A stretch of 42,270 bases of DNA from the IMG/VR virus record IMGVR_UViG_3300028844_005921, positions 1-42,270 of that record; one strand, 5' to 3'. This stretch comes from a virus. This document shows positions 1 through 38,340 of this stretch, piece after piece. Positions within the stretch are counted from its first letter, which is position 1, and the number at the start of each line of letters is the position of its first letter. Both the position numbers and the translations under genes were made by a program. The notes beneath the pieces are model-generated. The model was given only the letters and a program-made list of their open reading frames with translations. It was not told where the DNA came from and searched no databases.

Positions 1-846
1 CATCTTAGTATTATGAACACTAGCAATTGCTAGTTCTCGTCCTGTCAGTAGTCCAACGAATACCCAAGTCGTAGACATTGGTATTGAATTAAGTTCTTTG
101 AAGAAGTAGAGAATAATAAAATACGCTAAATCAATTAACGTAGCTGACCTAATATATCGTGTGGTACTTTTTTCCAACACAATATTTTGAATCTTGCCGC
201 CCTGCTCTCTAAACATAAAAGCAAGTCCGCCTACAAAGACAATAGAGATAAGAATCATTAAGTCCCAGGGAACTTGACGAGGTAAAAACACGGCAATATT
301 AGCCATGTCGTGTGATAACCAAGTCCACCATAGCAAGCCTGTTGTTCCCCACTGTGCTACCCGCCAATAAGGACGGCTCCAATGATCACCAATAGGTTTC
401 TTTTCGTTAATTAATCTAGCAATGATGTGCCAAAGAGCATAAGCTGCCACAGCGGCTACAGCATAACCCATGATTGATTTCATCAGCATCTTTTCCAACA
501 CAAAGGTTGACGCAAAAGCTGAGAGAACAAGGAAGGATGTAGAGACTGGCACACCAATGCGAGTTAGCACAAGGAGTACGGCAGGAGCCGCTGCGTGATA
601 CCATTGAATCTCTTGAAAAGGAATTTTAGTTAAACGTCCGTATGAAATGTCTCCTCCGTTGACATACCATCCATACCATAGCGCCCAAAGCAAAACCGCC
701 GAAGCGGCGGCCCAGAGCTTAGTCCAACTAAAACGTTCGTGGTTAGAAGCGACCCAAGTGCCAAGAGTTTGCACTGAATCATTTGCGATAACACTATATG
801 CAGCCATTAAAAAGCCTAGTACCATCCAGATAGTTAACATATCCAT
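1..846 (-). CDS. PiT-like inorganic phosphate (anion) permease, C-terminus cut by window edge
   Basis: This open frame runs off the left edge without a stop; 282 codons are visible. The protein is very hydrophobic with many membrane segments. It carries two copies of a PiT-like signature: ANDSVQTLG at residues 21-29 with PVSTS at 100-104, then SHDMAN at 178-183 with PMSTT at 256-260. In PiT carriers the paired N-D and P-STT motifs of the two halves form the phosphate and cation path. The phosphate role is inferred from these motifs; sulfate or another anion is possible. The start at 846 is the first ATG after the upstream promoter and operator; a second in-frame ATG lies two codons later. It is separated from the leftward operon by a region with no protein gene, so it is probably expressed independently. 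Confidence 0.65.
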   Translation of the reverse strand, partial: MDMLTIWMVLGFLMAAYSVIANDSVQTLGTWVASNHERFSWTKLWAAASAVLLWALWYGWYVNGGDISYGRLTKIPFQEIQWYHAAAPAVLLVLTRIGVPVSTSFLVLSAFASTFVLEKMLMKSIMGYAVAAVAAYALWHIIARLINEKKPIGDHWSRPYWRVAQWGTTGLLWWTWLSHDMANIAVFLPRQVPWDLMILISIVFVGGLAFMFREQGGKIQNIVLEKSTTRYIRSATLIDLAYFIILYFFKELNSIPMSTTWVFVGLLTGRELAIASVHNTKM

Positions 847-880: not shown

Positions 881-912
881 TATACCACGTGGTATAATAA
901 GTATTATACTAC
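881..912 (-). promoter_or_regulatory. Palindromic operator with overlapping minus-strand -10 box upstream of the permease
   Basis: TATACCACGTGGTATA at 881-896 is a perfect 16-bp palindrome. It is followed by AGTAT-T-ATACT at about 900-910. A minus-strand TATAAT lies at 903-908, which would start transcription near 896, inside the palindrome. This is the usual place for a repressor site. The matching -35 is weak, so the promoter may need an activator. The regulator is unknown. Confidence 0.6.
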
Positions 913-970
913 ATTTATATTACAATTTCATTACAGGAATCTATCGAAGAGGTTTTGTAATTTTTTGTAG

Positions 971-999
971 TTGACGGTGAGAGAAATTTATGCTATTCT
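971..999 (+). promoter_or_regulatory. Sigma70-type promoter, plus strand (TTGACG-17-TATTCT)
   Basis: TTGACG at 971-976, a 17-nt spacer and TATTCT at 994-999 make a good sigma70 promoter reading rightward. Transcription would start near 1006. No plus-strand protein gene follows; only the structured segment 1006-1140 lies before the convergent 3' end of the hydroxylase-like gene. Confidence 0.6.
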
Positions 1000-1005
1000 A
1001 TGTTT

Positions 1006-1140
1006 AATAGCTTGTGAATAACTTTACACCGTAGGTGAAAAGCTGTTTAATACGAGTGCTCCATATTGAATAACGTAGTCTCGTAGAGACGCAGCCGGGG
1101 CACGGAGTGCCGTAACGAAGTGCTACGTCAGAATTGTGCC
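1006..1140 (+). ncRNA. Candidate structured small RNA
   Basis: This segment is GC-richer than its surroundings and has no credible ORF. Read rightward it folds into nested hairpins. AGCTT (1009-1013) pairs with AAGCT (1040-1044) around CACC-GTA-GGTG (1027-1037). ACGTAG (1073-1078) pairs with CTACGT (1123-1128), enclosing GTCTC-GTA-GAGAC (1078-1090) and GGCAC-GGA-GTGCC (1099-1111). A sigma70 promoter sits just upstream. It matches no RNA family I recognise and has no clear U-tract terminator. It could alternatively act at the 3' end of the leftward operon transcript. Confidence 0.45.
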
Positions 1141-1141
1141 T

Positions 1142-1588
1142 TTATTTTATTGCTTCGTATGTACCAAATACTCTATCCCAGATAGAGAAGAAGATACCAA
1201 AATTCTTAGTCCAATCCCTGTGGTGAACTAAATGCCACTGCCCACTAGTCAGTAATGGAATATTAAATTTAGGGTTATGTTCAATTACTTCTTGAATAAT
1301 TGCTGACCACGCCCAATAAAATATTGCTATCCACCAATACCCAGTTATATAACAGAAAACTACTGTTGGAATAACTTCTGTTACCCATTGGTCAGCAGTA
1401 CTCCTCCAAGTATCTACCCAAATAAATATATTTTTCCAGTTCCATTTAGGTTGATAATCGGTCACATAGTCATGGTGATCTTGATGAATTTCTTTAAATT
1501 TAGGAATATGGTGAATACCCCTATGAAACCAATAAAGAATAAAGGTCCATGATAAAAACATCACAATATTAATAAGTATGGCTTGCAT
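1142..1588 (-). CDS. Fatty acid hydroxylase / sterol desaturase superfamily membrane protein
   Basis: This is a short integral-membrane protein (148 aa) with the histidine clusters of the di-iron hydroxylase superfamily: HRGIHH at 22-27, HQDHH at 35-39, an isolated His at 104 and HLVHH at 119-123. In this family the histidines bind two irons that hydroxylate or desaturate a lipid C-H bond at the membrane. Hydrophobic stretches lie at about 1-21 and 72-98. It is shorter than most members, as compact microbial versions are. It is the last gene of the leftward operon and overlaps the PP-loop gene upstream by 20 bases. The substrate is unknown; a host or virion lipid, or a carotenoid-like molecule, is possible. 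Confidence 0.7.
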   Translation of the reverse strand: MQAILINIVMFLSWTFILYWFHRGIHHIPKFKEIHQDHHDYVTDYQPKWNWKNIFIWVDTWRSTADQWVTEVIPTVVFCYITGYWWIAIFYWAWSAIIQEVIEHNPKFNIPLLTSGQWHLVHHRDWTKNFGIFFSIWDRVFGTYEAIK

Positions 1589-17048: not shown

Positions 17049-17369
17049 CTAATGTATTATTAAATCGTCGTCGGTATAATACATATCCATCCAAATGTTT
17101 CTTATTAAACCAGTTTGTGTGTATACCATAGTAAATGACTCTTTTAAAAATATATTATTACGATATAATTTTTCCATCATCCAACAATCTCTATAAGCTC
17201 GTTGAAGTTCTGTAAATCTTTTTTCGTCTTCCATAGCTTGAGGATAATAATTAGATATTATCTCACCAAAAATTTTTATTTTAGCTGTATCAGAAAGAGT
17301 TAAAACTGCATCAATTTTGTTTTCATCTACTTCACTCAAAATAAGGGGTTTTACTACTGCCATATACAT
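17049..17369 (-). CDS. Hypothetical protein, 106 aa
   Basis: I recognise no family. The protein looks mostly helical and acidic-aromatic, with no signal peptide or membrane segment. Two near-adjacent ATG codons exist at 17369 and 17363; neither has a strong ribosome site. It lies between the HTH-repeat gene (with a stem-loop at 17375-17408 in between) and the nucleotidyltransferase-cupin gene 9 bases downstream. Confidence 0.5.
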   Translation of the reverse strand: MYMAVVKPLILSEVDENKIDAVLTLSDTAKIKIFGEIISNYYPQAMEDEKRFTELQRAYRDCWMMEKLYRNNIFLKESFTMVYTQTGLIRNIWMDMYYTDDDLIIH

Positions 17370-30284: not shown

Positions 30285-30672
30285 ATGTTTCTAAATATAC
30301 ATCCCAATCTCTAATATAATCAGTTTCGTCATGCTCTGCAGAACAAAGCACCAAACAAATAGTGCCTTTACTAAATCTGTACAGCTTTCGCCATATATGA
30401 GGATACAGTAAGAGCCCTTGTCTAGGATTATTTAATTCTATTTGTTTATGCTGATTTCCATCCGTTAACTCTACCCAAAGACTTCCATAAAGAGGAATTA
30501 ATACTTCTTGTAGCGCATGATGCGCATGATCCCCACGGGACGCCCCTAAAGGTACGTTGTCTATAGTAAAGACTCTTTTAATTTCAAAGGGGATTTCTAT
30601 TAGATTATCAATAAAGGTTAGGCAGCCTCTTGAATCAGAAACGGTAGGAAATTTTAAAATTTTATACAACAT
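30274..30672 (-). CDS. fdtA: dTDP-4-oxo-6-deoxyglucose 3,4-ketoisomerase (FdtA/QdtA-like)
   Basis: A single-domain cupin of 132 aa, the usual size. The family signature is clear: RGCLTFID near the start, IPFEIKRVFTIDNVPLGASR followed by GDHAHHALQEVLIPLYG with the catalytic His pair, and the terminal EHDETDYIRDWDVYL. FdtA moves the keto group from C4 to C3 so that an aminotransferase can place an amino group at C3. The matching aminotransferase is at 33442-34554. The 4-ketoisomer type (axial or equatorial product) cannot be read from sequence. A strong GAGGGG site precedes the ATG, just after the tmRNA. Confidence 0.88.
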   Translation of the reverse strand: MLYKILKFPTVSDSRGCLTFIDNLIEIPFEIKRVFTIDNVPLGASRGDHAHHALQEVLIPLYGSLWVELTDGNQHKQIELNNPRQGLLLYPHIWRKLYRFSKGTICLVLCSAEHDETDYIRDWDVYLETYGK

Positions 30673-30684
30673 TTACCCCTCAAA

Positions 30685-30978
30685 ATAACAGGTATTCTGT
30701 TGCTAGGAACCTGCCGAACCCCAGAAAGACTATGCAGCTAGTGCATACTCCTCAGATGCTACGAAATTATCGTTTGCATTTATTTGTTTTCTTGCGGTTG
30801 AGGTCGCTTGCGCACCTGTCTCTCGGTTTCCCTATTATCTGCCTGTCGATCCTATTTCGCCCCCATCATAAGCATACCACAACAAACTCTTTCGTGTCTA
30901 GCAAGGTCTCATTACTAGAGACGGTGGTATGCTTATGGTGGAGGCGTCGGGTACTGCCCCCGAGTCCAGATCAGTTTT
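30685..30978 (-). ncRNA. ssrA: Circularly permuted two-piece tmRNA
   Basis: Reading leftward the gene is in permuted order. The acceptor piece comes first (about 30977-30936), ending CGCCTCC-A-CCA. Next is an intervening segment (30935-30865), then the coding piece starting GGGGGCGAAATAGG at 30864. The 5' GGGGGCG pairs with CGCCTCC in a 7-bp acceptor stem that has a G3-U70 wobble, the alanine identity element. The intervening segment closes in a 14-bp stem (30867-30880 with 30924-30937) that joins the two ends for processing. The tag frame is 30730-30777: resume codon GCA, then ANDNFVASEEYALAA and TAG. The conserved AGGATCGACAGG follows the 5' end. The outer limits are approximate. tmRNA rescues stalled ribosomes and tags the nascent protein for degradation. 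Confidence 0.92.
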
Positions 30979-31208
30979 CAGTCTACGTCATCAAGACACT
31001 CTATTTGGTACTCTTCCATAACTTCATTATAAAGATGTTTGATAATATCTTCTATATTATCTTCTGTAGTAATATAAATGTTTTTACCTATTTTTACATC
31101 TTTAACTTCTGAAAACCCTAATCCAAGTAAAGATTTAGTGACTGCTTTTCCTGCGTTATCAAGTATGCCAGAGCGCAGCATTATTGTTATCTTATACTGT
31201 TTCTTCAT
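30978..31208 (-). CDS. purS: Phosphoribosylformylglycinamidine synthase subunit PurS
   Basis: PurS is the small partner of the PurLQS complex, which makes FGAM in purine synthesis. The 76-aa sequence has the family core ITIMLRSGILDNAGKAVTKS, LLGLGFSEVKDVKIGKNIYI, and a final helix (IIKHLYNEVMEEYQIE). The ATG at 31208 is chosen over the upstream TTG at 31220. It is the second purine gene in the window, with PurT. It ends where the tmRNA acceptor piece begins, so the stop and the RNA gene are practically contiguous. The promoter at 31316-31344 probably drives both. Confidence 0.93.
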   Translation of the reverse strand: MKKQYKITIMLRSGILDNAGKAVTKSLLGLGFSEVKDVKIGKNIYITTEDNIEDIIKHLYNEVMEEYQIECLDDVD

Positions 31209-38311: not shown

Positions 38312-38340
38312 TTGCACATACCTTAAAACTGTGCTATTCT
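38312..38340 (+). promoter_or_regulatory. Sigma70 promoter (TTGCAC-17-TATTCT)
   Basis: TTGCAC (38312-38317), a 17-nt spacer and TATTCT (38335-38340) predict a start near 38347. That is at the GTG codon where the open frame of the next gene begins, with the in-frame ATG 17 bases later. Confidence 0.75.

Follow-up and report, generated by a model that had tools for sequence, protein, structure and literature searches.

A candidate small RNA gene, conserved at a fixed site in uncultured and mostly marine phages

The question raised by this locus is what a promoter transcribes when no gene stands behind it. The window, which is the whole stretch of DNA that was analysed, comprises 42,270 nt (virus record IMGVR_UViG_3300028844_005921, positions 1 to 42,270), and a first-pass annotation had proposed that an orphan sigma70 promoter near its left end (TTGACG-17-TATTCT) feeds a structured small RNA, possibly a regulator or antisense RNA. 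The promoter is indeed present and conserved in homologs. It is regarded as orphan because the next plus-strand ORF in the window gene set starts at 30732, leaving more than 29 kb without a plus-strand gene. The segment with homologs in other phages spans 969-1140 (+), and its features and flanking genes are as follows.

1-846 (-): membrane-protein gene, the start of which flanks the RNA segment
971..999 (+): extended -10 promoter, with -35 TTGACG at 971-976, a 17-nt spacer, TG, and -10 TATTCT at 994-999
1004..1140 (+): putative small RNA gene, predicted transcript ~135 nt
~1004-1007 (+): RNA 5' end, as predicted from the promoter
1006..1047 (+): outer helix P1, AAUAGCUU (1006-1013) with AAGCUGUU (1040-1047); in homologs [UC]AGC with GCU[AG]
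1027..1037 (+): hairpin P2, CACC-GTA-GGTG, 100% paired in 53 sequences
1078..1090 (+): hairpin P4, GTCTC-GTA-GAGAC, 99.6% paired in 53 sequences
1099..1111 (+): hairpin P5, GGCAC-GGA-GTGCC, 99.1% paired in 53 sequences
1125..1140 (+): 3' tail ACGTCA...TGTGCC, conserved for the most part
1135-1140 (+): putative RNA 3' end, TGTGCC, placed where homology stops
1142-1588 (-): fatty-acid-hydroxylase-like gene (Pfam PF04116), with its stop codon at the 3' end of the RNA segment, on the other side from 1-846

The promoter and its setting

The segment runs into the 3' end of the minus-strand gene at 1142-1588, as had been annotated, and past the tail, where the convergent gene has its stop codon, homolog sequences diverge. 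The assigned 3' end is a guess, because no recognisable intrinsic terminator was found for the small RNA; the only terminator-like site nearby, at 1171-1187 (-), lies outside the element. The segment is also GC-rich in an AT-rich genome, in agreement with the annotation (G+C of 0.467 compared with 0.343 for the whole window), and contains no conserved ORF, its short frames being interrupted by stops and 1-nt indels in the homolog sequences.

In the family, the promoter follows the pattern TTG[AC]N2-17-TATTCT/TAATTT with an extended TGn -10 and is preceded by an AT-rich stretch. TGnTA is present in 43/43 homologs and the TTG of the -35 lies at exactly 17 nt in 39/43. Sites resembling the consensus occur at shuffled level (3 in 761 bp, 4.0 expected), so that the consensus match alone does not single out the RNA promoter, whereas its conservation in homologs does. 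The same promoter type (TTGCAC-17-TATTCT, TG before the -10) is found at 38312-38340 (+), before the oppositely directed, rightward operon, and a near-identical one stands at the matching place in a 117-kb relative (17188-17216, minus strand), again before the operon of the other direction. From these occurrences, it would seem to be a promoter class in regular use by these phages, probably the early one. We infer that it is read by a host-type sigma70 RNA polymerase, which would transcribe the RNA, probably early.

Several observations concern the rest of the window. The gene at 1-846 (-) has at least 566 confirmed relatives in viral contigs and no match in Pfam, PHROGs (searched with a homolog) or INPHARED phages. 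Its product resembles a phosphate permease by eye only, and a PiT-like name was dropped, as the homologs have no Pfam match even at E = 10. Ahead of it, 903-936 (-) contains a Pho-box-like direct repeat (CTGTAATGAAATTGTAAT, 10 bp, then TATAAT), with a similar repeat at the matching place in contig L003, and a perfect 16-bp palindrome, TATACCACGTGGTATA, lies at 881-896, immediately downstream of the minus-strand promoter of this gene, and is possibly an operator. A phage-encoded tmRNA occupies 30639-31058 (-), with tag ANDNFVASEEYALAA (ARAGORN); both the alphaproteobacterial and the permuted tmRNA models match it, which suggests a connection with an alphaproteobacterial host.

Homologs, covariation and the selected strand

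Related contigs were reached through the neighbouring proteins, and BLAST among those contigs then found the element, the first homologs being ~70-73% identical. Three pattern scans of IMG/VR yielded 51 usable copies, 43 of them below 97% identity. The homologs lie throughout in uncultured phage contigs, dozens in number and mostly marine or estuarine, the habitat being inferred from the sample sources. A covariance model of the element, R1, scores the window, one of its own member sequences, at 118 bits (E 1e-28 to 2e-27). The search of Rfam 15 that had been advised with the annotation gave no match of any covariance model to the segment or its diverged homologs at the gathering threshold; the sole Rfam matches in the window were to the tmRNA (30.7-31.1 kb). 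INPHARED phages gave no significant match to the element. Bacterial genomes contained 113 pattern-matching stretches, none with promoter plus hairpins, and these were dismissed as chance matches lacking the rest of the element. No earlier description of the RNA was found in the part of the literature covered, comprising work on phage sRNAs, on structured RNAs of marine origin and on PeSLs.

The three hairpins of the annotation, two with GTA loops, were recovered at 1027-1037, 1078-1090 (GTA) and 1099-1111 (GGA). Its description of the RNA as strongly structured found no thermodynamic support, since the fold energy of the window does not differ from shuffles on the plus strand (z = 0.04; minus strand, z = -2.25) and the energy model gives an alternative fold an advantage of ~6 kcal/mol over P1/P4/P5. 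Among 43 homologs, the mean z was -0.77 for the plus and -2.05 for the minus strand. Neither energy nor promoter consensus makes the case for a plus-strand structure; conservation makes it, and the evidence for RNA structure, as read from aligned sequences, is covariation and not fold stability.

Covariation of the stems in related phages, without which the annotation would have abandoned its proposal, was looked for and found. In a MAFFT alignment of 53 diverged sequences, made without reference to the structure, P1, P2, P4 and P5 together have 94.0% standard pairs, with double changes in 13/20 pairs (0/500 shuffles) and a covariation score of 0.275, compared with 0.107 when shuffled and 0.019-0.079 with partners slid. 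Kinship alone can beat shuffles without any structure, and the slid control and the count of independent stem types weigh more. A second alignment, of 70 distinct sequences aligned to the covariance model, has 93.4% of cells paired, 14/19 pairs with double changes and 142 double-change cells; the first alignment made had amounted to ~19 effective sequences at 85% identity. Stems vary with their partners in P2 (CACC/GGTG, CAAC/GTTG, ACAC/GTGT), in P4 (GTCTC, GGCAC, GGCGC, GTTTC, AGAAC) and in P5 (GCAAC, GGAAC, CGCAC, CGAAC, TGCGC, GAAAC). Each of these hairpins is closed as c(GNA)g in the family, and C-G-N-A-G is invariant round the P4 and P5 loops. P1 is wobble-rich and has moderate support, as one pair fails in a clade of L037-like sequences and the helix is absent from the computed fold of the window. 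Two single strands of the RNA, GUGAAYA and AAAAGCURUUGAACA, are also conserved.

Other helices were considered and set aside. P3 (NAGC with GCUN, 11-nt loop) competes with P1 for the same bases, dropped to 81% in the larger set and is possibly an alternative to P1; pairing of GCUG with CAGC in the P4-P5 linker was inconsistent. The long-range stem of the first-pass annotation, ACGTAG (1073-1078) with CTACGT (1123-1128), exists in the window, where it forms part of the minimum-energy fold, but is not conserved in homologs and is private to the window sequence.

Which strand carries the selected molecule is a separate question. P2, P4 and P5 are almost purely Watson-Crick, with G.U nearly absent in the 53 sequences, and therefore cannot tell the strands apart; DNA hairpins would give the same pattern. 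P1 is more telling. One of its core pairs is U.G in 33, U-A in 11 and C-G in 8 of the 53 sequences, and the inner pair is C-G in 44 and U.G in 8. The four core pairs are standard in 202/209 cells on the plus strand (97%) and in ~160/209 on the minus strand (about 77%), since each U.G becomes A.C there, so that P1 pairs on the plus strand only. Together with the plus-strand promoter, this wobble pattern favours a plus-strand RNA as the selected molecule. A minus-strand RNA, such as a leader or an intercistronic element of the operon mRNA, keeps a small probability because the minus folds have the better energy z-scores (means and window value as given above). It is nevertheless very unlikely, as it would turn the P1 wobbles into A.C, leave the strictly conserved plus-strand -35 and -10 unexplained, and have a varying gene downstream of it.

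A fixed site among exchanged genes

R1 finds the element within 3 kb of a D12/SbcD-like DNA-repair nuclease gene (PHROG 100) in 73/77 D12-bearing contigs. The RNA lies upstream of D12 and divergent from it, always on the opposite strand. Of the four exceptions, L349 belongs to a contig with a copy farther than 3 kb upstream (L157); in L353 and L355 the sequence ahead of D12 extends for only 0.5-0.6 kb; and the D12 protein of L421 is the most diverged. One full-length copy was present in 12/12 records, extra hits being weak, short and promoter-like, at the promoter end. Flanking genes run opposite to the RNA in the loci examined, bar a few short ORFs over the element that are seemingly spurious.

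The surrounding region belongs to a replication/recombination operon. DNA polymerase and D12 have ~37-40% identity to T5-type phages, in two records of which the D12 region has no comparable gap, and the 117-kb relative (locus L335) has packaging and tail genes of siphovirus-like appearance. An assignment to T4-like phages, from the gp32-type protein, was rejected because DNA polymerase and D12 match T5-type phages. On these gene comparisons, the lineage, uncultured and mostly marine, has a replication module of the T5 type.

The promoter abuts the D12 start codon in 39/73 loci, and in many phages this codon and the -35 share one base. In 34/73 loci, cargo of 0.57-2.6 kb separates RNA and D12, and in the window another gene occupies the D12-side position. 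On the other side of the RNA lie varying genes (ATP-grasp, radical-SAM-like, oxygenase-like, cytidylyltransferase-like and others, several named by sequence reading and only some from Pfam or PHROG), beyond which are a glycosyltransferase-like gene and the gp32-type SSB. Cargo is thus swapped at both ends while the element stays whole. In L034 (3661-4149), and at the matching place in L023, the cytidylyltransferase-like frame runs into the element, so that the antisense strand of the RNA gene would code for the C-terminus of the protein.

This arrangement bears on the antisense role that had been entertained for the RNA, which now appears weak: the gene at its 3' end differs among phages, belonging to several unrelated families, and complementarity of the RNA to gene starts in the phage itself was nowhere clearly above control. 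A broader proposal is that the element acts in cis, by divergent transcription or as an antisense RNA regulating the opposite-strand operon, chiefly D12, in which case the duplex could be where RNase III cleaves the operon mRNA. The abutment on D12 and the invariably opposite orientation would fit, but the RNA structure is kept in the cargo-bearing loci and in the window, and a perfect antisense RNA needs no covariation; regulation in cis is accordingly considered unlikely.

Proximity to the SbcD-like gene in a replication/recombination operon also brings to mind an origin of replication. Transcripts prime replication in R-loops at T4 origins and in ColE1 (RNA II), and GNA triloops are unusually stable in DNA. 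The element could similarly prime replication through its transcript, or its hairpins could function in single-stranded DNA, where their c(GNA)g turns would be very stable; the AT-rich stretch ahead of the promoter and the near absence of G.U from P2, P4 and P5 would suit such a role in replication. GC skew, however, is unchanged at the element in the 117-kb contig and two others, where it tracks gene direction, and the U.G pairs among the P1 variants are specific to a plus-strand RNA, making an origin a rather improbable explanation. A DnaA-box-like TTATNCACA (-) in the window and some relatives was discarded, as its positions differ and it is not conserved.

Possible function and comparison with known systems

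Comparison of the homologs has shown a conserved promoter, a covarying plus-strand structure, a single copy, a fixed site and independence of neighbours. With the plus-only wobbles and the lack of an Rfam match, these features bear out the first-pass proposal of a plus-strand small RNA with its own promoter, so far as sequence can. The presence of one copy in nearly every member while neighbours are exchanged suggests that the RNA product is what functions, and in trans. The explanation considered probable, with appreciable room for others, is that the locus encodes a small noncoding RNA that is specific to phages and core to one lineage, is made by the host-type polymerase and acts in trans.

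Such an RNA would be a structured regulator or a protein-binding RNA, a regulatory role being possible. The c(GNA)g hairpins may be rigid elements for binding or stability, with contacts made by the conserved single strands. As no phage mRNA target stood out from control, the partner is more likely to be an RNA of the host, or a protein of either host or phage. A bolder and doubtful suggestion is that the RNA forms the core of a phage ribonucleoprotein or host-takeover machine that has no known counterpart, is required across the whole marine lineage and is recognised through a single scaffold bearing three rigid c(GNA)g hairpins. The apparently undescribed family, nearly universal in one phage lineage, was found from one intergenic segment, and core RNAs are rare in phages, those understood (pRNA, tmRNA) being mechanistically important. 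It offers precise experimental handles, since its 5' end is predicted, its helices come with naturally occurring compensatory changes and some single strands are invariant, and its site also marks where these phages exchange metabolic genes.

Among known systems, decoy RNAs of the CsrB/RsmZ type carry GGA in hairpin loops, and the RNA here likewise has several hairpins, many with a GGA loop. A CsrA-binding decoy was nonetheless rejected because GGA is not kept: loops are GGA, GTA, GCA or GAA, P2 usually has GCA or GTA, and only G-N-A is constant. The packaging pRNA of phi29 is a core phage-encoded structured RNA of comparable size and supplies the model for the ribonucleoprotein suggestion above, but the present RNA has no Rfam match and is not near packaging genes.

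The PeSLs of T4-type phages occur at high density and shuffle genes (Arbiol 2010 and Comeau 2014, as described in PMC4503421). On that description, the likeness is real, as a host-like promoter and stem-loops stand here too at a place of gene exchange, and a shuffling cassette, in which promoter and stem-loop provide homology for exchange, would explain why unrelated cargo changes on both sides while the element stays. In contrast to PeSLs so described, the element is at one site in a single full-length copy in each of the 12 records, is an RNA with no gene behind it to be driven, contains no terminator-like hairpin with a T-run, the only nearby terminator-like site being outside it, and covaries across the conserved RNA beyond what a homology tract explains. 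A cassette of this kind is therefore regarded as highly improbable, and a trans-acting RNA is preferred.

Structured RNAs of marine phages in Rfam include manA, wcaG and PhotoRC-II, and manA sits in 5' UTRs of same-strand genes (PMC2864571). The present RNA shares with these three a covarying structure, mostly from marine metagenomes and phages, but differs from manA in having its own promoter and facing away from all neighbours, and no Rfam model matches it. Phage-encoded small RNAs form a class that includes P22 sar, lambda OOP and cyanophage CfrI, the last an antisense RNA at the 3' end of psbA (PMC12197685). A conserved overlap with one target gene, as in CfrI, was not found, the convergent gene varying and ending near the RNA 3' end; unlike CfrI, the RNA here retains its structure beside changing neighbours and has no conserved cis target. 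It resembles the class in being a short noncoding RNA of a phage genome, outside coding transcripts, and it has the features of a phage small noncoding RNA gene, namely its own conserved promoter, no conserved ORF and a conserved structure.
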